Positions 3,199 through 26,246 of a DNA stretch of 42,293 bases are shown here, one piece after another. Origin of the DNA: Bacillota bacterium (GTDB lineage Bacteria > Macinerneyibacteriota > Macinerneyibacteria > Macinerneyibacteriales > DSCS01). The stretch is taken from the NCBI GenBank assembly GCA_011048995.1, contig DSCS01000004.1:1-42293 (forward strand). The letters are read 5' to 3'. Made by a program: the position numbers and the translations under genes. Below the pieces are notes generated by a model, which was given only the letters and a program-made list of their open reading frames with translations, was not told the origin of the DNA and searched no databases. The number at the start of each line of letters is the position of its first letter. Positions within the stretch are counted from its first letter, which is position 1.

Positions 3199-3693
3199 AT
3201 GGAAGCGTTGAAAATCCATATTCCCGACAATGAGCAATATCGCGAACTCGGCGCCTATATTGAGTCAGTCCGGAATATGCCCGGCCCCTTGATTAATGTA
3301 CTTCACAAGGCCCAGGGGATCTTTGGCTATTTACCCATGGAAGTGCAGGCTTTTATTTCACGGGAGTTGGATATCCCCTTAAGCACCGTATACGGGGTCG
3401 TTACTTTTTACAATTTTTTCAGTATGACACCCCGGGGAAAGTATGTGATCAATGTCTGTATGGGAACAGCCTGTTATGTCAAAGGCGCAGGAAAAGTCGT
3501 CGATTATTTTAAAGACGAGCTGAAAGTCGGTGAAGGGGAGACCACAGAGGACAATCTTTTTACTTTAACGACAGCCCGGTGTTTCGGCGCTTGCGGTCTT
3601 GCTCCGGTACTTATGGTCAATGAAGATGTCTACGGTCATGTCGATCGGAAGAAAGTCACTGAAATCTTAAAAAAATATCGCTCTTTAGGTTAA
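3199..3693 (+). CDS. NuoE-like [2Fe-2S] subunit 1 of [FeFe] hydrogenase (HydC/HndA type)
   Basis: The 164-residue protein has the normal length and layout of NuoE/HydC: an N-terminal helical part (to about residue 70) and a thioredoxin-like [2Fe-2S] domain. All four cluster ligands are present: C87 and C92 in CMGTAC, and C128 and C132 in CFGAC. The start is supported by GGAAGGAGG before ATG 3199. In multisubunit hydrogenases this subunit passes electrons between the NuoF-type NADH site and HydA in the cytoplasm. It is the first gene of a six-gene run and is followed 18 bases later by an HndB-like gene. A complex I role is unlikely because the run ends in HydA and has no other nuo genes. Confidence 0.92.
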   Translation: MEALKIHIPDNEQYRELGAYIESVRNMPGPLINVLHKAQGIFGYLPMEVQAFISRELDIPLSTVYGVVTFYNFFSMTPRGKYVINVCMGTACYVKGAGKVVDYFKDELKVGEGETTEDNLFTLTTARCFGACGLAPVLMVNEDVYGHVDRKKVTEILKKYRSLG

Positions 3694-3711
3694 AAGGCGG
3701 GAGGTAATCTT

Positions 3712-4080
3712 ATGAAAAATCTTGAAGAATTGAGAAAATTAAGGGAAAAGGCTCAAAAAGAAATTCAACTTCGCTCCAAGGATGCGCGTATCAAGGTCGT
3801 CGTGGGTATGGGGACTTCAGGTATTGCAGCCGGTGCCCGGGAGGTCCTGAAGACTTTTATCAATGAGATCAATCAAAAAAACCTTACTGATGTTATCGTG
3901 ACCCAGACCGGGGAAAAGGGAATGAGTTCCATGGAGCCTATTGTGGAGATCCATGAAGAGAAAAAACCCGTCATCGTCTATGGCGATATGAACCCTTCAA
4001 AGGTGAAAAAGGTTGTCGAAGAGCATATTGTGAACGGAAAGGCTGTTGATGATTACCTGATTTCCATGGAGGAAAAATAG
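3712..4080 (+). CDS. HndB-like thioredoxin-fold subunit lacking all cysteines
   Basis: This 122-residue protein matches HndB, the small subunit of NADP-reducing hydrogenases, in the segment VGMGTSGIAAGAREVL and in VTQTGEKGMSSMEPIVE. HndB-type proteins normally bind a [2Fe-2S] cluster through four Cys in these two segments. Here the whole protein has no Cys at all: the expected positions read Thr-Ser-Gly, Glu-Lys-Gly and Ser-Ser. A helical N-terminus (residues 1-28) precedes the domain. The gene has a GGGAGG ribosome binding site and lies between NuoE-like 1 and NuoF-like 1. It is most likely a structural or assembly subunit that keeps the fold without a cluster. The family call is good; the loss of the cluster is read directly from the sequence. 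Confidence 0.85.
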   Translation: MKNLEELRKLREKAQKEIQLRSKDARIKVVVGMGTSGIAAGAREVLKTFINEINQKNLTDVIVTQTGEKGMSSMEPIVEIHEEKKPVIVYGDMNPSKVKKVVEEHIVNGKAVDDYLISMEEK

Positions 4081-4101
4081 GGGAACGAGGAGGATTGAAC
4101 T

Positions 4102-5904
4102 ATGGCTCACAGAATGAATGTGCTGGTATGCAGCGGTGCATCCTGCATATCCAATAACAGCCTGAAAGTCAAAGAGGCTTTGTTAGCTGAGATCGAAAGG
4201 CTGGATTTAAAGCGAGAGATCAAAGTCATTGAGACAGGATGCATGGGGCCGTGTCAGTTAGGGCCGGTTCTTTTGGTGTATCCTGATGAGACATTGTATA
4301 AAAAGGTTCAAGTAGCCGATGTCAGGGAGATCGTCGAACAGCATTTTCTTAAAGGCCGCCCGGTCGAACGTCTGATGTATAAATCACCCTTGACAGATGA
4401 ATTGGTCCACAAAAGCAGGGATGTCGATTATTTCAAAAAACAATATAAGATCGTGCTGGCGAATTGCGGCAGTATCGATCCGGAAAGCCTGGATGAATAT
4501 ATTGCCGTGGGCGGTTATGAAGCTTTGGGAAAAGCCCTTACCGAGATGAATCCGGACAGTGTCTTGGATGAGATCAAGATCAGCGGACTTCGGGGCCGCG
4601 GAGGCGGAGGATTTCCCACACATCTGAAATGGATGTTTACAAAAAACGAAAAAAGCAAAGAAAAATATGTGATCTGCAATGCCGATGAAGGGGATCCGGG
4701 AGCTTTTATGGACCGTTCGGTCATTGAAGGGGATCCTCATACGTTGATCGAAGGCATGGCTATTGCCGGCTATGTGGTCGGAGCATCCAAAGGCTACATT
4801 TATGTGCGGGCCGAATACCCCCTGGCAATTGAGCGCCTGGAGAAGGCAATTGCCCAAGCCAAAGAAACCGGATTTTTAGGTGAAAACATATTTCAGACAG
4901 ATTTTAGCTTTGATCTTGAAGTCCGTGTCGGTGCCGGAGCCTTTGTTTGCGGAGAAGAGACGGCTCTTATTCACTCCATTGAAGGGAAACGGGGTACTCC
5001 GCGGCCCCGGCCGCCTTATCCGTCTGCATCAGGTGTCTGGGGGAAACCTACAGTTCTGAATAATGTGGAGACCTATGCCAATGTCCGCCATATTATCCTC
5101 AACGGCGGTGCCTGGATGGCCAAAATCGGAACAGAGACCAGTAAGGGCACCAAAGTCTTTGCCCTTTCGGGAACTATAAAAAATACAGGATTAGCAGAAG
5201 TTCCCATGGGGACGACGATCCGTGAGTTGATCTATGACATCGGGGGCGGAGCGCCTGAAGGGCATGAGATCAAGGCCGTTCAGCTGGGCGGGCCTTCGGG
5301 AGGATGTGTAACTCCTGAGTATTTCGATACCCCCATTGACTATGAATCACTTACGGCTTTAGGTGCGATGATGGGCTCCGGCGGAGTCATCGCCATGGAT
5401 GAAACAGCGTGCATGGTCAACACAGCAAAATTCTTTCTGGATTTCACCTGTTTTGAATCATGCGGGAAATGTGTTCCGTGCCGTGTCGGGTTGAAACAGA
5501 TGTACGGGATTTTGGATAAGATCACAAAAGGCGAGGGAGAAGAGGAAGATATCGAAGCTCTGGAAACCTTGGGGAAAACGATCAAGGCGACAGCCCTCTG
5601 CGGCTTGGGACAGACCGCTCCCAACCCTGTTCTTTCAACGATCAAATTTTTCAGGCATGAATACGAAGAGCATATTTTTGAAAAAAAATGCCGGGCTCTT
5701 GTCTGTAAAGACTTGATTTCCTATGAAATCAACAAAGATGCTTGCAAAGCCTGTACTCTATGCGCTCAAAAATGCCCGGTGGATGCCATTAAGGGAGAGC
5801 GCGGAGTTGTCCATGAGATTCAACAGGAAAAATGTATATCCTGCGGAAACTGTTATGATGTTTGTCCCTTCGGCGCTGTCATGCGTCTTTCAGGGGAAAA
5901 CTGA
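4102..5904 (+). CDS. NuoF-like flavoprotein subunit 1 of [FeFe] hydrogenase (HydB/HndC type)
   Basis: At 600 residues this has the full HydB architecture. A thioredoxin-like [2Fe-2S] domain (C10, C15, C47, C51) is followed by the NuoF core with the FMN/NADH motifs GLRGRGGGGFPTHLKW (about 162-177) and NADEGDPGAFMDR (193-205). Next comes the [4Fe-4S] site ESCGKCVPC with C454, C457, C460 and distal C500. Two C-terminal [4Fe-4S] ferredoxin motifs follow (C548/551/554/558 and C578/581/584/588). HydB is where NAD(H) reacts and, in bifurcating enzymes, where electrons are split between NAD and ferredoxin. The GGGG and GDPGAFMDR versions are the ones I associate with bifurcating HydB. AGGAGG precedes ATG 4102. 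Cytoplasmic. Confidence 0.93.
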   Translation: MAHRMNVLVCSGASCISNNSLKVKEALLAEIERLDLKREIKVIETGCMGPCQLGPVLLVYPDETLYKKVQVADVREIVEQHFLKGRPVERLMYKSPLTDELVHKSRDVDYFKKQYKIVLANCGSIDPESLDEYIAVGGYEALGKALTEMNPDSVLDEIKISGLRGRGGGGFPTHLKWMFTKNEKSKEKYVICNADEGDPGAFMDRSVIEGDPHTLIEGMAIAGYVVGASKGYIYVRAEYPLAIERLEKAIAQAKETGFLGENIFQTDFSFDLEVRVGAGAFVCGEETALIHSIEGKRGTPRPRPPYPSASGVWGKPTVLNNVETYANVRHIILNGGAWMAKIGTETSKGTKVFALSGTIKNTGLAEVPMGTTIRELIYDIGGGAPEGHEIKAVQLGGPSGGCVTPEYFDTPIDYESLTALGAMMGSGGVIAMDETACMVNTAKFFLDFTCFESCGKCVPCRVGLKQMYGILDKITKGEGEEEDIEALETLGKTIKATALCGLGQTAPNPVLSTIKFFRHEYEEHIFEKKCRALVCKDLISYEINKDACKACTLCAQKCPVDAIKGERGVVHEIQQEKCISCGNCYDVCPFGAVMRLSGEN

Positions 5905-5914
5905 GCATGATAAA

Positions 5915-5945
5915 GAGAGGAAGGAAGCTGCCACTTCTTCCTCTC
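5915..5945 (+). other. Intercistronic hairpin between the two NuoE/NuoF blocks
   Basis: GAGAGGAA-G-GAAG (5915-5927) pairs with CTTCTTCCTCTC (5934-5945), giving 12 base pairs with one bulged G and a 6-base loop. No T-run follows, so it is not a standard terminator. It lies in the only sizeable gap of the first half of the operon (5905-5970) and may be an RNA processing or stability element. Confidence 0.6.
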
Positions 5946-5970
5946 CGATAAGACTGAAAGGGGAGATGGT

Positions 5971-6432
5971 ATGAAACGAAAGGAAATACTCAGGAAATAC
6001 GAGGCGAGGCCTGATAATCTGCTCTATATCCTGCATGATATTCAGGATGCCAGCCCGTATAATTATGTCACAGAGGAAGATATGGAGGAAATAGCTGATT
6101 TCTTAGACTTGCCCTACTCTAAGGTCTACGGTACGGCCACCTTCTATTCCATGATTTCGCAAAAGCCCCGGGGGAAGCATGTGATCCGGCTCTGCGATTC
6201 TCCTCCATGCCATTTGATGGGGTCGGAAAGCATTCTTGACCTTCTCAGGGATGAGTTGGGCATCGATGTAGGGCAGACGACACCTGATATGCTTTTTACT
6301 TTGGAGATTACCTCCTGTTTAGGTGTTTGCGGCGTGGCTCCGGCCATGATGATCGATGAAGAGGTTTACGGAAACCTGAATCCGAAAAAACTCCGCAAAA
6401 TCATTAAGGATTACAGGGAGGGGATTATATGA
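5971..6432 (+). CDS. NuoE-like [2Fe-2S] subunit 2 of [FeFe] hydrogenase
   Basis: This is a second, divergent NuoE/HydC protein of 153 residues with an intact [2Fe-2S] site: C75 and C80 in CDSPPC, and C116 and C120 in CLGVC. The N-terminal helical part is typical of NuoE, with KVYGTATFYSM matching the family. The start is supported by GGGGAG before ATG 5971. The stop overlaps the next ATG by four bases (ATGA), so it is probably co-translated with NuoF-like 2 and pairs with it. It differs strongly from the first NuoE-like protein, so this is an old paralogue and not a recent tandem copy. It likely relays electrons from the second flavoprotein to HydA. Confidence 0.9.
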   Translation: MKRKEILRKYEARPDNLLYILHDIQDASPYNYVTEEDMEEIADFLDLPYSKVYGTATFYSMISQKPRGKHVIRLCDSPPCHLMGSESILDLLRDELGIDVGQTTPDMLFTLEITSCLGVCGVAPAMMIDEEVYGNLNPKKLRKIIKDYREGII

Positions 6433-8060
6433 GCCTGATAACAAAATATGTCTTGATCAGTATAGATGAAGATACACTTATCGCCGGTGCCAGAAAAGTC
6501 GAAACGGAATTGAAACGCATTTTAGAGGAATTGGATCTGTCACGGGAGATCATGGTCGTAGAGACAGGGACCATGGGTATTATGGGCAAAGGTGTGGTCA
6601 TTCTGATCCAGCCTGACGATGTGACCTATGTCAATGTGACTCCTGAGGATGTCCGTGAGATCGCCAACGAGCATTTGCTGAAAGGGCGCCCGGTTAAACG
6701 TCTGGAGTTTACGGGGAAAATCGATCAGAGTGTGATCTCTTTCAGGGAAACGGCTCAGGAGCTCAAAAAGCAGACCCGTGTGGTCTTGGGTAATTCCGGG
6801 CTCATTAATCCTGAAAGTATTGATGAGTATATCGCCGTAAACGGCTATGAAGCCCTGGGGAAAGCGTTGACGGAGCATAAGCCCGAAGAGATCATCGACA
6901 TTGTTAAAAAAAGCGGCCTCAGAGGCCGGGGCGGAGCCGGTTTTCCCACTGGACTCAAATGGTCTTTTACCGCCCCCCTGAAGAATAAACCTAAATATCT
7001 GGTCTGCAATGCCGATGAAGGCGAGCCGGGGACATTCAAAGACCGTTTGATTATGGAAGGCGATCCCCATAAGCTCTTGGAAGGAATGGCCATTGCAGCC
7101 TATGCCATCGGAGCAGAAAAAGGCTTTATTTATATACGCGGAGAGTATACCTTATCAATTAACAGGACGCAAAAAGCGATTGAAGATGCCAGAAAATACG
7201 GACTTTTAGGACAGGATATTTTCGGATCGGGATTTTCGTTTGATGTCGAGATCAAAAAGGGAGCCGGGGCGTATGTCTGCGGTGAAGAGACCGCCCTGAT
7301 CAACTCTTTGGAAGGGGGACGCGGCAATCCGCGTGTCAAACCGCCTTTCCCGGGAGTTCAGGGATTATGGCAGCAGCCCACAGTGGTCAACAATGTCGAG
7401 ACACTTTCCAATGTCCCTGCGATAATCCTTAACGGTGCCGATTGGTATAAATCCATTGGAACGGAAAAGTCTTCCGGAACAAAAGTCTATACGATTTTGG
7501 GCCATGTGCATAATCCCGGGTTGATAGAGGTCGAAATGGGAACGACCTTACGCGATATCATCTATAAATACGCAGGAGGCGTAAAAGGCGGAAAATTCAA
7601 GTGCGCCCTGGTCGGCGGTGCTGCAGGGGCTTTCCTCAATGAAGAAATGCTGGATGTGCGCATGGATTATGACCATCTGGGTGAATATAAAGCCGTTTTG
7701 GGCTCAGGAGCTATTCTTGTCATGAATGAAGAGAGCTGTATTGTGGATATGCTCCGCAACATCCTCTTTTTCTTTAAACATGAATCCTGCGGCAAATGCT
7801 CTCCCTGCCGGATCGGAACAGCGCAGCTGTACATGCTGGCGGACAAGATCTATTCGGGACAGGGGACGGACGAGGATCTGGATCAGATGCTGACATTGTC
7901 TGAAGCCATGAGCACGACGGCTTTATGCGCTTTGGGACAATCTCCCTATTTGGTGATTCACACCGCTGATAAGTTTTTTAAGGATGAGATAGAGGAGCAT
8001 ATCCGGAGAAAAGTATGCATGAAGGATATTTGCAGGATGAACGGAGCAGAGCACAAATGA
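6429..8060 (+). CDS. NuoF-like flavoprotein subunit 2, without N-terminal cluster or C-terminal ferredoxins
   Basis: The 543-residue protein has a complete NuoF core: GLRGRGGAGFPTGLKW (about 163-178), NADEGEPGTFKDR (194-206), and the [4Fe-4S] ligands C454, C457, C460 and C500. These motif versions resemble complex I/formate dehydrogenase NuoF more than bifurcating HydB. The thioredoxin-like N-terminus (1-95) is still recognisable, including HLLKGRPVKRLEF, but has no Cys; the position matching TGCMGPC reads TGTMGIMGKG. The double ferredoxin tail of NuoF-like 1 is absent. It should bind FMN and NAD(P)H and pass electrons through one [4Fe-4S] cluster to NuoE-like 2. It starts inside the NuoE-like 2 stop. 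Whether it joins the same complex or forms an alternative one with HydA cannot be told from sequence. Confidence 0.9.
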   Translation: MSLITKYVLISIDEDTLIAGARKVETELKRILEELDLSREIMVVETGTMGIMGKGVVILIQPDDVTYVNVTPEDVREIANEHLLKGRPVKRLEFTGKIDQSVISFRETAQELKKQTRVVLGNSGLINPESIDEYIAVNGYEALGKALTEHKPEEIIDIVKKSGLRGRGGAGFPTGLKWSFTAPLKNKPKYLVCNADEGEPGTFKDRLIMEGDPHKLLEGMAIAAYAIGAEKGFIYIRGEYTLSINRTQKAIEDARKYGLLGQDIFGSGFSFDVEIKKGAGAYVCGEETALINSLEGGRGNPRVKPPFPGVQGLWQQPTVVNNVETLSNVPAIILNGADWYKSIGTEKSSGTKVYTILGHVHNPGLIEVEMGTTLRDIIYKYAGGVKGGKFKCALVGGAAGAFLNEEMLDVRMDYDHLGEYKAVLGSGAILVMNEESCIVDMLRNILFFFKHESCGKCSPCRIGTAQLYMLADKIYSGQGTDEDLDQMLTLSEAMSTTALCALGQSPYLVIHTADKFFKDEIEEHIRRKVCMKDICRMNGAEHK

Positions 8061-8074
8061 AGTGCAGCTCTGCT
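8045..8074 (+). other. Intercistronic hairpin before hydA
   Basis: AGCAGAGC at 8045-8052 and GCTCTGCT at 8067-8074 are perfect inverted repeats. An alternative fold pairs GCAC (8051-8054) with GTGC (8062-8065) and keeps TCTGCT as the outer stem. The stop codon of the preceding gene (8058-8060) lies in the loop, and no long T-run follows. Confidence 0.5.
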
Positions 8075-8111
8075 TTAAACCATAGGAATTTACGGTAAGG
8101 AGGATTTGATT

Positions 8112-9899
8112 ATGGCTGAAATGGTCAAATTGTATATCGACGGCACAGAGGTGGAAGTTCCCGAGGGGACAACCATTTTGAATGCAGCCAAAGAGGCCGG
8201 GAAAAATATTCCCACATTGTGTTATCATCAGGATCTGCCCCCGACGGCCGCTTGTGGCGTTTGTGTTATTGAGTATGAAGGGCGCCCGGGTATGCAGAGA
8301 GCTTGTTGTACACCGGTGGCTCCGGGAATGAAGGTCATTACCAATTCTAAGACTTTGAGAGAACGCAGAAAAGCCGTAATAGGCCTTATTCTCTCTAATC
8401 ATAATGTGGACTGCCCTTCTTGCGCAGCCAATGAAAAATGTGAACTGCAGAAACTGGCCAATGATTTAGGTGTGGATATGCATATGTACGAGAAGATCTT
8501 AGATCACAGGCCTGAGGACAAGACCAGTGTCGCCATCGTCCGCGACCCTGACAAATGTATTCTTTGCGGCCGCTGCGTGACTGTCTGTGATGAAATACAG
8601 ACAGTGCATGCGATCGAGATTGCAGACCGCGGATTCGATGCCCATGTGGATACCGCTTTTTCTGCGGGTATGGGAGTCAGCCCCTGTGTCAATTGCGGCC
8701 AGTGTATCGTTTATTGCCCCACCGGCGCTTTGCGTGAACAAAGCCATCTGGAGGCGGTATGGGATGCTATTCTTGATCCTGAAAAACATGTCGTCGTTCA
8801 GGAAGCTCCGGCTATCCGTGCTTCAATCGGAGAAGAATTTGGCATGGAAATCGGATCCGTGACTGTCGGAAAAATGTATTCAGCGCTGAAACGCATCGGT
8901 TTTGACGCCATATTTGATACTAATTTTTCTGCGGACCTGACGATCATGGAAGAAGGGACAGAGCTTGTTCAGCGAATTCAAAAGGGCGGCAAACTACCCC
9001 TGATCACTTCCTGTTCACCGGGATGGGTCAAGTTTATGGAGACCTTTTTCCCGAACCTTGGGGAAAACACCTCAACGGCGAAATCACCGCAGCAGATGAT
9101 GGGAGCGTTGACGAAGACTTATTACGCGGAAAAGAGCGGCATCGACCCTGCAAAGATCGTTTCCGTCTCTATTATGCCGTGTACGGCGAAAAAGTTCGAA
9201 GCTCAGCGGCCTGAGATGAGGGATAGCGGGTATCAGGATGTGGATTATGTCCTGACCACACGGGAATTTGTCCGCATGATCCGAGAAGCCGGCCTTGATT
9301 TTAAAAACCTTCCTGAGGAAAAGCCCTACCATGCTTTGGCTGATTATACAGGTGCGGCGACGATCTTCGGTGCCACCGGAGGTGTTATGGAAGCGGCCGT
9401 CCGTTCTGCGTACTATCTTTTGACCAAAAAAGATATGAATAATGTCGATATTAAACCTGTGCGCGGCATGGAGGGAATCAAAGAAGCAGAATTGGAGATC
9501 CCCGGTGTAGGGAAAGTCAAAGTCGCCGTTGCTCACGGCCTCGGCAATGCCAGGGAGCTTTTAACGAAAGTCAATAAACAGCTGGAAGAGACAGGGAAAA
9601 GCGAATATGTTTTCATTGAGATCATGGCTTGTCCCGGCGGATGTGTCGGGGGCGGAGGACAGCCTTACGGCAGTTCCATCGCTATGAGGGCCCGCCGCGG
9701 CGAAGGACTCTATCAGGAGGACTCATCACTGCCTAAACGCTGTTCTCATCACAATGAAGCGATCCTGAACATCTATAAGGAGTTTCTGAGTGAACCCGGA
9801 TCCAAGAAGGCACACAAGCTTCTCCATACCAATTATGTGGAAAGAAGTGTTGTCTCCGGTGATGCCGTCAGAGAAATCACACATAAGCACGGACATTGA
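8112..9899 (+). CDS. hydA: [FeFe] hydrogenase catalytic subunit HydA (M3-type)
   Basis: I choose ATG 8112 (595 residues), 8 bases after AAGGAGG, over the TTG at 8106. The order is: an N-terminal [2Fe-2S] domain (C37, C48, C51, C65/66); a His-Cys [4Fe-4S] site (H97, C101, C104, C110); two [4Fe-4S] motifs (C149/152/155/159 and C192/195/198/202); and the H-cluster domain. H-cluster motifs are L1 TSCSPGW (299-305), L2 MPCTAKKFE (355-363) and L3 EIMACPGGCVGGGGQP (C507, C511). The enzyme makes or oxidises H2 using electrons from the NuoE/NuoF subunits. L1 has Ser where the common motif TSCCPxW has its second Cys. The tail AHKLLHTNYVER is typical of the family. It is the last gene of the operon, followed by a strong terminator. 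Confidence 0.95.
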   Translation: MAEMVKLYIDGTEVEVPEGTTILNAAKEAGKNIPTLCYHQDLPPTAACGVCVIEYEGRPGMQRACCTPVAPGMKVITNSKTLRERRKAVIGLILSNHNVDCPSCAANEKCELQKLANDLGVDMHMYEKILDHRPEDKTSVAIVRDPDKCILCGRCVTVCDEIQTVHAIEIADRGFDAHVDTAFSAGMGVSPCVNCGQCIVYCPTGALREQSHLEAVWDAILDPEKHVVVQEAPAIRASIGEEFGMEIGSVTVGKMYSALKRIGFDAIFDTNFSADLTIMEEGTELVQRIQKGGKLPLITSCSPGWVKFMETFFPNLGENTSTAKSPQQMMGALTKTYYAEKSGIDPAKIVSVSIMPCTAKKFEAQRPEMRDSGYQDVDYVLTTREFVRMIREAGLDFKNLPEEKPYHALADYTGAATIFGATGGVMEAAVRSAYYLLTKKDMNNVDIKPVRGMEGIKEAELEIPGVGKVKVAVAHGLGNARELLTKVNKQLEETGKSEYVFIEIMACPGGCVGGGGQPYGSSIAMRARRGEGLYQEDSSLPKRCSHHNEAILNIYKEFLSEPGSKKAHKLLHTNYVERSVVSGDAVREITHKHGH

Positions 9900-9923
9900 A
9901 GTTAAAAAAAAGACGATGAAAAG

Positions 9924-9951
9924 GGGCGGCTTTAAGGCCGCCCTTTTTTTT
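9924..9951 (+). terminator. Rho-independent terminator of hydrogenase operon
   Basis: GGGCGGC (9924-9930) and GCCGCCC (9937-9943) form a 7-base GC-rich stem with a 6-base loop, followed by eight T (9944-9951). It lies 25 bases after the hydA stop. On the minus strand it follows the stop of the small ORF at 9950, so it may work in both directions. Confidence 0.9.
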
Positions 9952-10306
9952 ATTTCTGTTGATCAAGAAAAAGAGTAAAAGAGTGAATGAGAACCGGTTT
10001 GGCGCTTTCCCATTGAAAACGGTCTCCGGGATCAGGGAAAATCAAAATTCCGAATTGACGGGAGACAGCCTTAAAGGTTTCCCGGCGAGCCGCTCCCGCC
10101 GGAAGATTGCCTGTTCCGGTCAGATAGGACCATCTTTTCCCGAATATTTCACAAAAAAGAGCCGTGCAGGAATATTCTTCCGAAAAAAGCCGAGTAACAG
10201 TGCGAATAAAGGTGTCAAAATCCGGGCTTTCACAAGATGTTCTTTCCAGCCGCTTATAAAAAGAGGTCACGTTCGCCCCCGGAAACACGGGTGTAGTATT
10301 CTTCAA
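9950..10306 (-). CDS. Small protein downstream of hydG, unknown (possibly GAF-like)
   Basis: This 118-residue ORF begins inside the 3' end of hydG (53-base overlap if ATG 10306 is used; a shorter start is possible) and stops right at the shared terminator. That placement suggests a real last gene of the hydG transcript. I recognise no family. The alternation of strand-like segments, a central GTGNLPAG turn and an FGILIF...PVLIHSFTLFL end vaguely recalls the C-terminal half of GAF domains, but this is weak. An overlapping plus-strand ORF (9959-10432) is the competitor and has no ribosome binding site that I can see. Confidence 0.45.
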   Translation of the reverse strand: MKNTTPVFPGANVTSFYKRLERTSCESPDFDTFIRTVTRLFSEEYSCTALFCEIFGKRWSYLTGTGNLPAGAARRETFKAVSRQFGILIFPDPGDRFQWESAKPVLIHSFTLFLDQQK

Positions 10307-11753
10307 ATTCTTTTAAGAGAGGGTTATTGGCGAAGAAGGGGTCTTTATGGATCTCGTCGATCTCTTTCTTTATCAGCGCTTCTCCGATCTTTTGCGTTTC
10401 GGGAGAAGAAAAATCATCAAGCCATTCTCTGAATGTCAGAACAGCATTTAATTTACAAAATTTACCCTCTGTTCCGCATTTGAGCAAGCCCATGATCTTG
10501 TCCCCTGTTCTTCCGCATCGATAACCGGCTGTGCAAAAGGAAGAGATCATCCCGAGTTCTGCCAATTCACGGACAACATCGTCTAATTCACGGGTATCAC
10601 CCAGCACAAATTGCTGACGGTCCTTTTCCTGACGGTCATACTGCTCAGAATAAGCTCCTAAACCGATACGTGTTGATGCGTCAGTCTGTGTGCAGCCCAG
10701 CTTAATGACTTCTTTGCGTAATTCAGGCCGCTCCCGGGCTGTAATGATCATGCCGGTGTAGGGAATAGAGAGGCGGAGGACTGTCACAAGATGTTTGAAA
10801 TCATCATCAGAGACGAGATGTTCCGTATGTTCAGAATAGGGCGCATTATCAGCGGGCATTAACCGGGGAAAGGAAACGGTGTGAGGACCGATCCCGTCAA
10901 ATTTCTCTTCCAGGTCGATAGCATGATACAACAGGCCCATGACATCATAGCGCCAGCGGTAAAGCCCGAAGAGAGCTCCGATCGCCACATCATCAATGCC
11001 CGCTTCCATGGCTCTGTGATGAGTATAAAGACGCCACCGATAGTCAGATTTTGGTCCTGTGGGATGCATCTTCTGATAAGTGGGACGGTGATACGTCTCC
11101 TGAAAGACTTGAAACGTGCCGATTCCTGCTTTCCAGAGTTTTTTAAAATCTTCAATAGAAAGGGGAGCGGCATTGACATTGACCCGACGGATCGAGCCTG
11201 TGCCTTTTCTTGTCTTTTCATTGACTTCGTAGATCGCTTTAATTGTCTCTGCCATATAATCGGCATCGGAAAGCGGGTGTTCGCCGTAAACGGCAATCAA
11301 ACGTTTATGGCCCATTTTGACCAGGGCCTGTGCTTCTTTACGGACTTCATCTGGTGTAAGGACGCGTCGTTTTTCATGCGTATTGTCTTTTCTGAACCCG
11401 CAATAGAGACAGTTGTTCACACAGACATTGCTGCAGTAAAGGGGGGCAAAGATGACAATGCGATTGTCATAGACTTTCCGTTTTACTTCAAGAGCTGCTG
11501 CTGCCATCTCTTCACGGAGCTCTTTATCCCGGACGTGAAGCAGAGCCGCTGTCTCATCAGGGTCGAGACGCTGGATAGAGAGAGATTTTTGGATAATATC
11601 GCGTATCTTTATTTTATCCGGATTTTGATTTTGGCTCAAATGACTTTCGATGGCCTCATGATCAATAAAATCCTTTCCGCTGTCCAGATAACGGTCAATT
11701 TCGTCGTTTTTGACAACATCATCCGCCCATTCCTGTACGCTCTTTTTTCCCAT
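10254..11753 (-). CDS. hydG: HydG, radical SAM tyrosine lyase for H-cluster maturation
   Basis: This 499-residue protein has the length and sequence of HydG, which cleaves tyrosine to provide CO and cyanide on an Fe synthon for the [FeFe] H-cluster. The radical SAM cluster ligands are C111, C115 and C118 in CVNNCLYC, followed by GFRKDNTHEKR. The ThiH-like barrel continues through FQETYHRPTY and MGLLYHAIDLEEKF. In the C-terminal domain the auxiliary-cluster region reads FCTAGYRCGRTGD and ends KFCKLNAVLTF. The usual pattern I know there is CTACYR, so the second Cys is Gly here and a new Cys lies three residues later. A strong AAGGAGGG site precedes the ATG. It has its own promoter and is separate from hydE; hydF is not in the window. 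Confidence 0.95.
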   Translation of the reverse strand: MGKKSVQEWADDVVKNDEIDRYLDSGKDFIDHEAIESHLSQNQNPDKIKIRDIIQKSLSIQRLDPDETAALLHVRDKELREEMAAAALEVKRKVYDNRIVIFAPLYCSNVCVNNCLYCGFRKDNTHEKRRVLTPDEVRKEAQALVKMGHKRLIAVYGEHPLSDADYMAETIKAIYEVNEKTRKGTGSIRRVNVNAAPLSIEDFKKLWKAGIGTFQVFQETYHRPTYQKMHPTGPKSDYRWRLYTHHRAMEAGIDDVAIGALFGLYRWRYDVMGLLYHAIDLEEKFDGIGPHTVSFPRLMPADNAPYSEHTEHLVSDDDFKHLVTVLRLSIPYTGMIITARERPELRKEVIKLGCTQTDASTRIGLGAYSEQYDRQEKDRQQFVLGDTRELDDVVRELAELGMISSFCTAGYRCGRTGDKIMGLLKCGTEGKFCKLNAVLTFREWLDDFSSPETQKIGEALIKKEIDEIHKDPFFANNPLLKEFEEYYTRVSGGERDLFL

Positions 11754-23554: not shown

Positions 23555-23627
23555 GCGGGTGTAGCTCAGTTGGTAGAGCACTACGTTGCCAACGTAGATG
23601 TCGCCGGTCCGAGTCCGGTCACCCGCT
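23555..23627 (+). tRNA. tRNA-Gly(GCC)
   Basis: A complete cloverleaf: acceptor GCGGGTG pairs with CACCCGC, the D-arm is GCTCAGTTGGTAGAGC, the anticodon loop is TTGCCAA (GCC), and the T-arm is GCCGGTCCGAGTCCGGT. U73 is the discriminator. CCA is not encoded and must be added after transcription. Confidence 0.97.
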
Positions 23628-23643
23628 TTTTTTTTATTATGAT

Positions 23644-23715
23644 GGCAACGTAGCCAAGTGGTAAGGCAGTGGTCTGCAAAACCACTATTCACCGGTTCGA
23701 ATCCGGTCGTTGCCT
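23644..23715 (+). tRNA. tRNA-Cys(GCA)
   Basis: Acceptor GGCAACG pairs with CGTTGCC, the anticodon loop is CTGCAAA (GCA), and the T-arm is CCGGTTCGAATCCGG. U73 is the discriminator. CCA is not encoded. Only two bases separate it from the next tRNA. Confidence 0.97.
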
Positions 23716-23717
23716 TT

Positions 23718-23803
23718 GCCTGGGTGGCGGAAGTGGTAGACGCATCGGACTTAAAATCCGGTGGCAATTCTTTGCCGTGTCGGTTCGAGTCCGACCCTAG
23801 GCA
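23718..23803 (+). tRNA. tRNA-Leu(TAA)
   Basis: An 86-base class II tRNA with a long variable arm (GTGGCAATTCTTTGCCGT). Acceptor GCCTGGG pairs with CCTAGGC including one G-T pair. The anticodon loop is CTTAAAA (TAA) and the discriminator is A. Seven T follow directly. Its last seven bases overlap the 3' end of the convergent CorC-like gene. Confidence 0.97.
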
Positions 23804-25038
23804 TTTTTTTCTTGAGGGCTCTTTTCACGAGAGATTTTGACCTTTTTAATTTTCGCAGGCGAAGCGTCAATAACGGTAAACCGATATCCGTTTGAAATCC
23901 GAGATTCTCCGGGCCGAGGGATTTTTTTGAAGGTTTTAAGAAGATATCCGGCTATGGTGTTGATATCGGGAGCGTCGATGATGATGCCGAAATCAATACG
24001 GAGCTGTTCCAAAGATGTCTTGCCGCTGACCACCATTTCTATGTTTTTCTGAAAGGGAGCCGAAAGGATATTCTCGCGTTCCCCCAATATTTCATCGACG
24101 ATCTCTTCCAATGTCAGAACACCGGAAATAGAGCCATATTCGTCCACGACAATGAGGAGAGCTTCTTCTTCAAAAAAAGGAACGGCATCAATCAAGGGAA
24201 TGATCTCCGGAATAAAGACAATGTCACGCATGACTTCGGAGACAGGTAGCTCATTGCTGTCGATGTTGACCAGATCTCCGGGGACTGTGTAGCCGATGAG
24301 ATGGGTATGTTTCCCGTGAAAAAGGAGAAGGAACTCATCCTGCGAAGACAAAAAACGTTTTTTAATCTCTCCGACAGAGGTGTCCCCCGGCAGGGCGGAT
24401 GTCTCGTTGATGGGGATGACCGCCTGATGTATCCGTTTTTCTTTAAACGAAAAGATCCGTTCGATAAGGGTCGGGTCTAATTCAGGAATGATCTCTGCCA
24501 TTTGAGAAGAGCTGATGACTGTGAAAAGTTCTTTTCGGCTGATGCTTTCGAGATGATTGGCTGTCTCAATATTCAGCAATGTATAGATTCCTTTAAGCAT
24601 GAATTTTAAAAGAATGCTCAAGGGGAAAAACAACATGCGAAAGAAAGCGAGAAAGGGATAGAAGTGGTATGCGAAATAATGGGCTCTTTGACGCATGATG
24701 TTTTTCGGGATGATTTCTCCGAAAAGGACCATGACCGCCGTTCCCGCTACAGAACTGATCAGTGTTCCGTAGCGCGGATAGAATTTTAGCATCAGAAGTG
24801 TCAAAAGAGAAGAGAAGACAAAATTGCTGATATTATTGCCCACCAATATCGTAGTGTAAAAGCCTTCGATGTCTGCAAGGAGCGCTTTAATGGCGATGCC
24901 TCTTTTAGACCCCGTATAAGCCAGCGTGTTGATTTTAAACTTGTTCAGAGAGAGAAAGGCATTCTCTGTTCCGGAAAAGAAGGCGCTGAGAAAGACCATG
25001 CCTATGACAGTCAGCAGGAGAGTCAGTGTTTCTGTCAT
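23797..25038 (-). CDS. CorC/HlyC-type membrane protein (DUF21-CBS), copy 2
   Basis: This 413-residue protein has a DUF21/CNNM transmembrane part with hydrophobic segments at about 5-27, 60-85, 92-115 and 125-150. A pair of CBS domains follows (about 200-325, including VVDEYGSISGVLTLEEIVDEILGE), then a C-terminal CorC_HlyC domain (about 335-400). The family includes Mg2+/Co2+ efflux transporters and so-called hemolysin C-like proteins. It overlaps the upstream paralogue by four bases (ATGA), so the two are co-translated and may form a heterodimer. Its stop codon lies inside the tRNA-Leu gene, and the T-run after that tRNA encodes its last Lys/Asn codons. Confidence 0.9.
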   Translation of the reverse strand: MTETLTLLLTVIGMVFLSAFFSGTENAFLSLNKFKINTLAYTGSKRGIAIKALLADIEGFYTTILVGNNISNFVFSSLLTLLMLKFYPRYGTLISSVAGTAVMVLFGEIIPKNIMRQRAHYFAYHFYPFLAFFRMLFFPLSILLKFMLKGIYTLLNIETANHLESISRKELFTVISSSQMAEIIPELDPTLIERIFSFKEKRIHQAVIPINETSALPGDTSVGEIKKRFLSSQDEFLLLFHGKHTHLIGYTVPGDLVNIDSNELPVSEVMRDIVFIPEIIPLIDAVPFFEEEALLIVVDEYGSISGVLTLEEIVDEILGERENILSAPFQKNIEMVVSGKTSLEQLRIDFGIIIDAPDINTIAGYLLKTFKKIPRPGESRISNGYRFTVIDASPAKIKKVKISREKSPQEKNA

Positions 25039-26246
25039 GCCTCTCCTTTTTTGCGGATGATCTTGATCGTATTGATTTTGTTTTTGGCAGAATCCACGAT
25101 GATGAATTTTGCTTCGGAGGTGCTGAGAACAGTTCCCTTTTTTGGAATGTCACCGGCGAGATGTTCAATATATCCTCCAATGGTCTTTGCTTCGCTGTCA
25201 TCCAGCTTTAATCCGAGAATGCGGTTGATTTGAGGAACAGGGGTAGCCGAATGGACGATAATACTGTTCTTTGATATCTTTTCATGAGAGATATCCGGAT
25301 TAAGCGATGTGACGTTTTGAAGAATATAATGCATAATATCGTCATAAGTCATGCTTCCGGTCACGGTGCCGTATTCATCGACAATAAGAGCGACCGGAGT
25401 CTCTTTCAGAGCATGGATCACATCCTTGACTTTTTTTAAGGCGGGAACAAAAAGAGGGGGAAGAAGATCCGGTTTACGGTCCGGCTTTTGCATCAAAAGG
25501 GCTTTAGGTGTCAAAATACCACGGATATGGTCATAATCTCCGTTGAAGACCACAAGATAACCCGATTTTGTCCGGATAAAACGCCCCTGAATTTCTTCAA
25601 CAGTCATCCCGTCGGGAATAAAAAGGGCATGGTCAATATTGTTCATGACATTCTTAAGGGAAAAGAGCTGAATATTGAGCATATTGACTAAAATCGTTTC
25701 TTCTACAGGGTCCAGAATAGCTGCATTTCCCTTTTTCAATACGGTAATGACTTCGCTTTTTTTTAAATGCTCTTCCCGGCCGGGGATCAGCCGAAGAGCC
25801 GTTTGGATCAGCGGCTGCGTGACGGCTTCGGCTAAAAGGACGAAGGGCTTGAGAAAGAAGATGAAGAAGGGAAGAATCGCACAGGACAGGCCTGAGTAAG
25901 CGCGGTTAAAGCGGGCGGCAAAGGTTTTCGGGATGATTTCTCCGAAGATGAGAATAGCTCCTGTGCCGAAAAGAATGGCGTAGGGGATACCGGACGGCCC
26001 GAGTTTTGTGTAAAACGCTTTGGTTATGAGGGCTGCGGCAATGACATTGACAAGAAGATTTCCCAAAAGAATAGATGTCAGCAGTCGGCCGGGATTTTTT
26101 CTTAAAGTATGGAGTTTTTGCGCCAGTTTATTTTTAGTGAGGCTTTTGATCTCAGCATCAGAGAAAGAAAATATGGCTGTTTCAGACCCCGAAAAAAGGC
26201 CGGAAAGAATTAAGAGAATAATGAAAATGAAAATGGATGGCCCCAT
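25035..26246 (-). CDS. CorC/HlyC-type membrane protein (DUF21-CBS), copy 1
   Basis: The 403-residue paralogue of the following gene has the same order: DUF21 membrane domain (1-190), CBS pair (200-330, with LIVDEYGTVTGSMTYDDIM) and CorC_HlyC domain (335-400). It is the first gene of the two-gene operon. Identity with its neighbour is moderate at best, so the duplication is old. The likely role is divalent-cation homeostasis at the inner membrane. There is no ribosome binding site, and a promoter lies directly upstream, so the message is probably leaderless. Confidence 0.9.
   Translation of the reverse strand: MGPSIFIFIILLILSGLFSGSETAIFSFSDAEIKSLTKNKLAQKLHTLRKNPGRLLTSILLGNLLVNVIAAALITKAFYTKLGPSGIPYAILFGTGAILIFGEIIPKTFAARFNRAYSGLSCAILPFFIFFLKPFVLLAEAVTQPLIQTALRLIPGREEHLKKSEVITVLKKGNAAILDPVEETILVNMLNIQLFSLKNVMNNIDHALFIPDGMTVEEIQGRFIRTKSGYLVVFNGDYDHIRGILTPKALLMQKPDRKPDLLPPLFVPALKKVKDVIHALKETPVALIVDEYGTVTGSMTYDDIMHYILQNVTSLNPDISHEKISKNSIIVHSATPVPQINRILGLKLDDSEAKTIGGYIEHLAGDIPKKGTVLSTSEAKFIIVDSAKNKINTIKIIRKKGEA

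Follow-up and report, generated by a model that had tools for sequence, protein, structure and literature searches.

Within the window (the whole 42,293-nucleotide stretch of DNA that was analysed), positions 3199–9899 carry six open reading frames, all on the plus strand. Their coordinates, strand and Pfam/NCBIfam families agree with the initial annotation of this run as a hydrogenase operon with two NuoE/NuoF pairs. The features are as follows.

3199..3693, plus strand: NuoE1, HydC-type (BfuC); PF01257, E=9.9e-50; one [2Fe-2S] cluster
3712..4080, plus strand: HndB/HydD-like small protein; Trx-like ferredoxin fold, zero Cys, no cluster
4102..5904, plus strand: NuoF1, HydB (BfuB) of the complete bifurcating type; FMN, B1–B5 Fe-S sites, ferredoxin-type dicluster tail
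5971..6432, plus strand: NuoE2, HydC-type; PF01257, E=5.9e-51; one [2Fe-2S] cluster
6429..8060, plus strand: NuoF2, flavin subunit of the non-bifurcating type; FMN/NADH residues, [4Fe-4S] B1 and Cys3/His site kept, N-terminal [2Fe-2S] and ferredoxin tail lost
8106..9899, plus strand: HydA, [FeFe] hydrogenase catalytic subunit; BfuA-type Fe-S wire (Fer2, His/Cys3, dicluster), H-cluster motifs
9918..9949, plus strand: intrinsic terminator at the operon end; 14-pair stem with T-tract
10254..11753, minus strand: HydG, H-cluster maturase, a convergent accessory neighbour; TIGR03955, 470 bits against a cut-off of 312

The nuoE2 and nuoF2 genes overlap by 4 nt, a purine-rich stretch precedes the start codon of each of the six genes, and HydA has an alternative start at the ATG at 8112. 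The other plus-strand terminator matches within the run have just 3 G-C pairs each. HydABC and HndABCD have one NuoE and one NuoF per HydA; this rule fails here, where two of each accompany one HydA. Elsewhere in the window, positions 174–2980 encode a FecR-domain protein and, after it, a 440-aa protein without a Pfam match, whose sequence has the look of an outer-membrane beta-barrel, and positions 23797–26246 encode two tandem CNNM/CBS/CorC transporter paralogues, with a three-tRNA cluster (23555–23803) alongside.

Both NuoF proteins consist of Complex1_51K and NADH_4Fe-4S domains (Pfam/NCBIfam) and are 54% identical over the core. Unlike NuoF2, NuoF1 also has a Fer4 dicluster tail and an N-terminal [2Fe-2S] domain. 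The double ferredoxin tail had rightly been assigned to NuoF1 only of the two, and the motif differences noted at the outset (GGGGFPT/GDPGAFMDR in NuoF1, GGAGFPT/GEPGTFKDR in NuoF2) are correct. In NuoF1 all ligands of B1–B5 are present (CCCC / CCCC / CCC+H / dicluster), including the Cys3/His B2 (Zn) site, which has been interpreted as a [2Fe-2S] site in A. mobile and as a Zn site in T. maritima. Published residue criteria (PMC7311640) assign to bifurcating subunits Ala/Met by the NAD site, Phe by FMN and a GGPSG motif, and to non-bifurcating ones Thr/Ser and Lys/Ser/Ala by the NAD site, Tyr by FMN, the absence of GGPSG and a smaller number of Fe-S domains. NuoF1 carries every bifurcating marker (D-A-M, Phe and GGPSG), and its nearest solved relative is A. 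woodii HydB (7q4v), with 69% core identity. By its predicted cofactor sites and these marker residues, NuoF1 is a complete bifurcating-type HydB.

NuoF2 is not complete in the Bfu sense: its B5 ligands read STTM, the dicluster is missing, and the marker positions hold E-T-K, Y and GGAAG. The residues and the fewer Fe-S domains by which Losey defined the non-bifurcating beta subunit are found in NuoF2 and its homologues, and on every published residue criterion NuoF2 is predicted to be a non-bifurcating, NADH-only subunit. Its earlier description as complex I-type stands at the level of the motifs but not for the protein as a whole. NuoF2 retains the HydB-type N-terminal thioredoxin-like domain, minus its cluster ligands, together with the C-terminal-proximal Cys3/His site, and its best solved relatives are HydB chains of the bifurcating family, not NuoF. 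The own genome encodes neither a NuoG-type subunit nor a further NuoF, and with the HydB N-domain this led us to reject a NuoEF of respiratory complex I; judged from its sequence, NuoF2 is a HydB-type relative. The FMN/NADH motifs and [4Fe-4S] ligands of NuoF2, like the cluster ligands of NuoE2, are invariant or nearly so in homologues, so that a dead paralogue is unsupported. A structure model of NuoF2 (pLDDT 78), in which the FMN/NAD region is poorly modelled, was used for the domain fold only.

NuoE1 and NuoE2 are both members of the 2Fe-2S_thioredx family (Pfam/NCBIfam), and their four cluster cysteines are invariant in 40 and 74 homologues, respectively. As originally proposed, the two pairs are divergent and, with their FMN, [4Fe-4S] and NuoE cluster ligands conserved, both appear functional. 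The HndB-like protein is homologous to the BfuB N-terminal domain (9n5u_B, E=4e-15), and the best PDB matches of its model (pLDDT 87.5) are Trx-like [2Fe-2S] ferredoxins and BfuB N-domains. Since it has no cysteine, it can bind no Cys-ligated cluster; A. woodii HydD was reported to be cofactor-free (PMC6288185). Homologues with cluster cysteines come mostly from loci whose NuoF1 carries a fused NfnB-like domain, and in many loci without NuoF1 the HndB-like gene still lies directly upstream of E2-F2. A gene for a HATPase-like protein (histidine-kinase-type ATP-binding), missing in the window, is inserted between nuoE1 and the hndB-like gene in four other loci (L011:3891-4502, L012:3732-4298, L050 and L065).

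HydA scores 833 bits against a cut-off of 765 on NF040763 ('NADH-dependent [FeFe] hydrogenase, group A6') and has all three H-cluster motifs of [FeFe] hydrogenase group A: TSCSPGW, MPCTAKK and EIMACPGGC (patterns tested: TSC(C/S)PxW, MPCxAKK and ExMACPGGC). Its nearest solved relative is A. woodii HydA1. In T. maritima HydABC, two trimers are joined through a His-ligated HydA cluster (PMC9499530), and the T. maritima-type His/Cys3 ligand motif is present in the window HydA, making an asymmetric assembly possible, at the risk of a leak from ferredoxin to NAD. The same motif, together with the loss of the B3–B5 clusters from NuoF2, would fit a structural or regulatory role in which NuoE2-NuoF2 replaces one BfuBC unit of the HydABC dimer and has no NADH turnover of its own. 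We regard this role as improbable, given the near-invariance of the FMN/NADH-contacting motifs, the [4Fe-4S] ligands and the NuoE2 cluster ligands, and the existence of E2-F2-A loci without an adjacent F1.

The residue split between the two NuoF types is near-strict over about 46 NuoF1-type and about 70 NuoF2-type sequences. The exceptions are one NuoF1 (L019) with T/I and the NuoF2-type outliers L075 and L081, which keep the N-terminal cysteines; the tail is missing in some NuoF1 of other phyla. The NuoF/HydB tree agrees with this division. In this FastTree phylogeny, rooted on E. coli NuoF and built without the S. wolfei and S. aciditrophicus sequences, NuoF1 falls among the characterised bifurcating subunits (A. 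woodii, T. maritima, NiFe-Hyd, Stn, NfnABC) without forming one clade separate from them, and NuoF2 is placed outside, with weak to moderate basal support (0.64–0.81). A mirror-tree test indicated that all parts evolve in correlation, as mere co-inheritance would also give.

The own genome (1.88 Mb, 99.7% complete) restricts the choice of catalytic partners. HydA is its sole subunit joining a BfuA-type Fe-S wire to a catalytic domain; a search with PF02906, PF13510 and PF00384 found no second catalytic partner, and no molybdopterin enzyme or Fdh and no NuoG was found. The third Complex1_51K match is RnfC, inside an Rnf operon. A second Fe-hydrogenase match (449 aa, contig C6) was rejected as a partner: it has no Fer2 wire, and it has a C-terminal FeS domain and HATPase-like and PHP-like neighbours. 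From these features the protein (L115, C6:42000-52000) is probably a hydrogen sensor, and in Cloacimonadota (L012, L017, L025) the tandem operon is preceded by a similar Fe-hydrogenase-like gene of ~430 aa. A second Fer2_4 match was also rejected, as its sequence resembles a sarcosine-oxidase-like FAD protein and a DAO-like gene adjoins it. With HydA the only candidate, either both pairs use it or one pair has no known partner; the suggestion that two alternative complexes share HydA fits this situation. The genome also has five POR gamma-type genes (2-oxoacid:ferredoxin oxidoreductase) besides the Rnf operon, so both NADH and ferredoxin are expected as donors.

The arrangement recurs in related genomes. 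NuoF1 lies immediately upstream of NuoF2 in 35 of the 52 assessable NuoF2 loci, namely those with at least 3.5 kb upstream, drawn from one genome-contig scan that favours the 80 nearest relatives of NuoF2. The tandem was found in Cloacimonadota, WOR-3, Aminicenantes, Atribacteria, Lentisphaerae, Caldiserica and other phyla. The nearest relative found, a Candidatus Mcinerneyibacteriota MAG with 92% NuoF2 identity, has the same six genes, and NuoF1 and NuoF2 are adjacent in all three genomes of the phylum examined. Chance or misassembly was rejected because the six-gene order recurs in L009–L012 and in other phyla. Among 40 Cloacimonadota genomes, 25 have both NuoF types (19 in tandem), 2 and 3 have one alone and 10 have neither (Fisher p=1.8e-5, with kinship ignored and the F1 class set by score); the tandem is present in 19 of the 27 NuoF2-bearing genomes.

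The remaining 17 of the 52 loci have E2-F2-A without an adjacent F1, so NuoF1 is not obligatory in cis. Conversely, in eight genomes no catalytic gene is visible next to the E1-(B)-F1 loci, some of which are cut by contig ends, and (B-)E2-F2-A loci lie elsewhere; further BfuB-type genes in some of these genomes may bring other catalytic partners. One such operon, E1-HATPase-B-F1 with no adjacent catalytic gene, is followed directly by selA and selB (L099:4748-11608), as if it were tied to a selenocysteine enzyme encoded elsewhere. Loci of both kinds would be expected if two separate enzymes merely shared the operon, E2-F2-HydA being an NADH hydrogenase like that of S. wolfei and E1-F1 a soluble ferredoxin/NAD(H) oxidoreductase working without HydA. 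BfuBC cores without BfuA have been reported (Type 4, clade 57), some with partners unidentified there (PMC9304861), and clade 57 may include split-form cases such as those seen here. However, in characterised NuoF1-type cores the electrons of the third substrate enter through a BfuA-type subunit, for which HydA is the only candidate here, and HydA is closest to its counterparts in the bifurcating enzymes of A. woodii and T. kivui. We therefore consider two separate enzymes unlikely.

The gene next to the tandem is more variable than the tandem itself, which stays together while the catalytic gene switches between HydA and an NAD-type formate dehydrogenase (FdhA). In the four Cloacimonadota loci checked (L016, L017, L022 and L025), FdhA contains an in-frame TGA (..VDHCARL-TGA-HSSTVAG..), a probable selenocysteine codon, and in L016 the gene has a formate transporter and a MobA-like gene as neighbours. 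Mechanical ORF calling divides such FdhA genes in two, one part appearing as a 'short BfuA' and the other as a molybdopterin protein. Truncated BfuA was accordingly rejected for the 'short A' genes of these four loci, which read as split FdhA; the ends of the remaining ones may be cut by contig borders. As the same module pair accompanies formate dehydrogenases in relatives, it has the appearance of a 'dual diaphorase' platform of general use.

The initial annotation had also proposed that electrons come from two pyridine nucleotide pools. The window does not bear this out: both NuoF sites look NAD(H)-type, and the markers set ferredoxin plus NADH against NADH. A second nucleotide pool is plausible, on domain content, in relatives in which the NuoF1 tail is swapped for DPD_II and a pyridine-nucleotide oxidoreductase (NfnB-like) domain, as in Atribacteria, Lentisphaerae, Aminicenantes and Coatesbacteria. 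The fusion of NuoF1 to Fer4_20 and Pyr_redox_2 is seen at L027:3451-6534 and also in L037, L041 and L065; in L039 (5332-6507) these domains are encoded by a separate gene. PMC11406978 describes a NuoF1-like fusion with DPD_II and an FAD/NAD(P) domain for Hydrogenedentota sub-type I.

Taken together, the cofactor sites predicted for each subunit and the single HydA point to one catalytic subunit served by two FMN/NADH modules, one coupled (ferredoxin plus NADH) and one uncoupled (NADH), a reading to which we assign a probability of about 0.7. From these sites we infer the electron flow. NuoE1-NuoF1 would form a BfuBC-type bifurcating core, in which H2 production needs NADH and reduced ferredoxin together. 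NuoE2-NuoF2 would act as a stripped module passing electrons only between NADH and the Fe-S wire of HydA, a role likened to that of the non-bifurcating NADH-dependent hydrogenases of syntrophs. H2 would then be made or used through HydA by either route, the uncoupled one being feasible for production only at very low H2 and the coupled one at higher H2; H2 can be formed from NADH alone when H2 is low (PMC5626996). If both modules sat on one wire, NuoF2 would offer ferredoxin-derived electrons a leak to NAD+ in the absence of gating, a point in favour of separate complexes or gating. The two modules may sit on one shared HydA oligomer or form two alternative complexes, and any stoichiometry would be putative. 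A single hetero-oligomer built on HydA (on Fdh in relatives), with both modules on one wire and switching or gating by H2 or redox state, is a tentative proposal that we rate somewhat below even odds; where NuoF1 carries the NfnB fusion, such an assembly would link NAD, NADP(H) and ferredoxin with H2/formate.

The multimeric [FeFe]-hydrogenases known so far possess a single flavin subunit, by which they are classed as bifurcating or not. Here both types are encoded with one catalytic subunit, and this is so in many phyla of uncultured anaerobes, with either HydA or FdhA in the catalytic place. The label 'A3 bifurcating hydrogenase' would give a wrong prediction of the energy yield for such loci. 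NuoF1 and NuoF2, which presumably dock on the same HydA, also offer a natural internal control for what makes the HydB FMN bifurcate. The initial annotation knew of no enzyme with this composition, and we found no description of a double module on one catalytic subunit in the literature searched, including PMC9304861, PMC7311640, PMC5626996 and PMC11406978, a body of text with few subscription papers and no supplements.

Each half of the system, the bifurcating core and the non-bifurcating module, is already known. In its B1–B5 sites and marker residues, NuoF1 resembles the bifurcating HydABC(D) of Acetobacterium woodii, Thermoanaerobacter kivui and Thermotoga maritima and the HndABCD of Solidesulfovibrio fructosivorans (Bfu family Type 1). 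The E1-B-F1...A genes match the HydABCD/HndABCD subunit set. What differs is the extra non-bifurcating NuoE2-NuoF2 pair that separates NuoF1 from HydA. Fdh-Bfu and FdhFeFe-Bfu enzymes (PMC9304861) place a BfuBC core on FdhA, like the Fdh versions of the tandem, but with one core rather than two types. According to PMC11406978, Hydrogenedentota sub-type II BfuB is without B5 and B3B4, like NuoF2, and sub-type I has the DPD_II and FAD/NAD(P) C-terminus, like NuoF1 of Atribacteria and Lentisphaerae; the two form separate clusters, each with its own BfuA, and its main text describes no double module on one BfuA. S. wolfei Hyd1ABC (PMC5626996) and S. aciditrophicus HydAB (PMC7311640) share with NuoF2 the T/K and Tyr residues, the lack of GGPSG and the missing N-terminal [2Fe-2S] and ferredoxin tail. 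S. wolfei HydB1, at 407 aa, has no N-terminal [2Fe-2S] domain, whereas NuoF2, at 543 aa, keeps the domain without its ligands and retains the Cys3/His site. NuoF2 also differs from these syntroph enzymes in adjoining a full bifurcating core.
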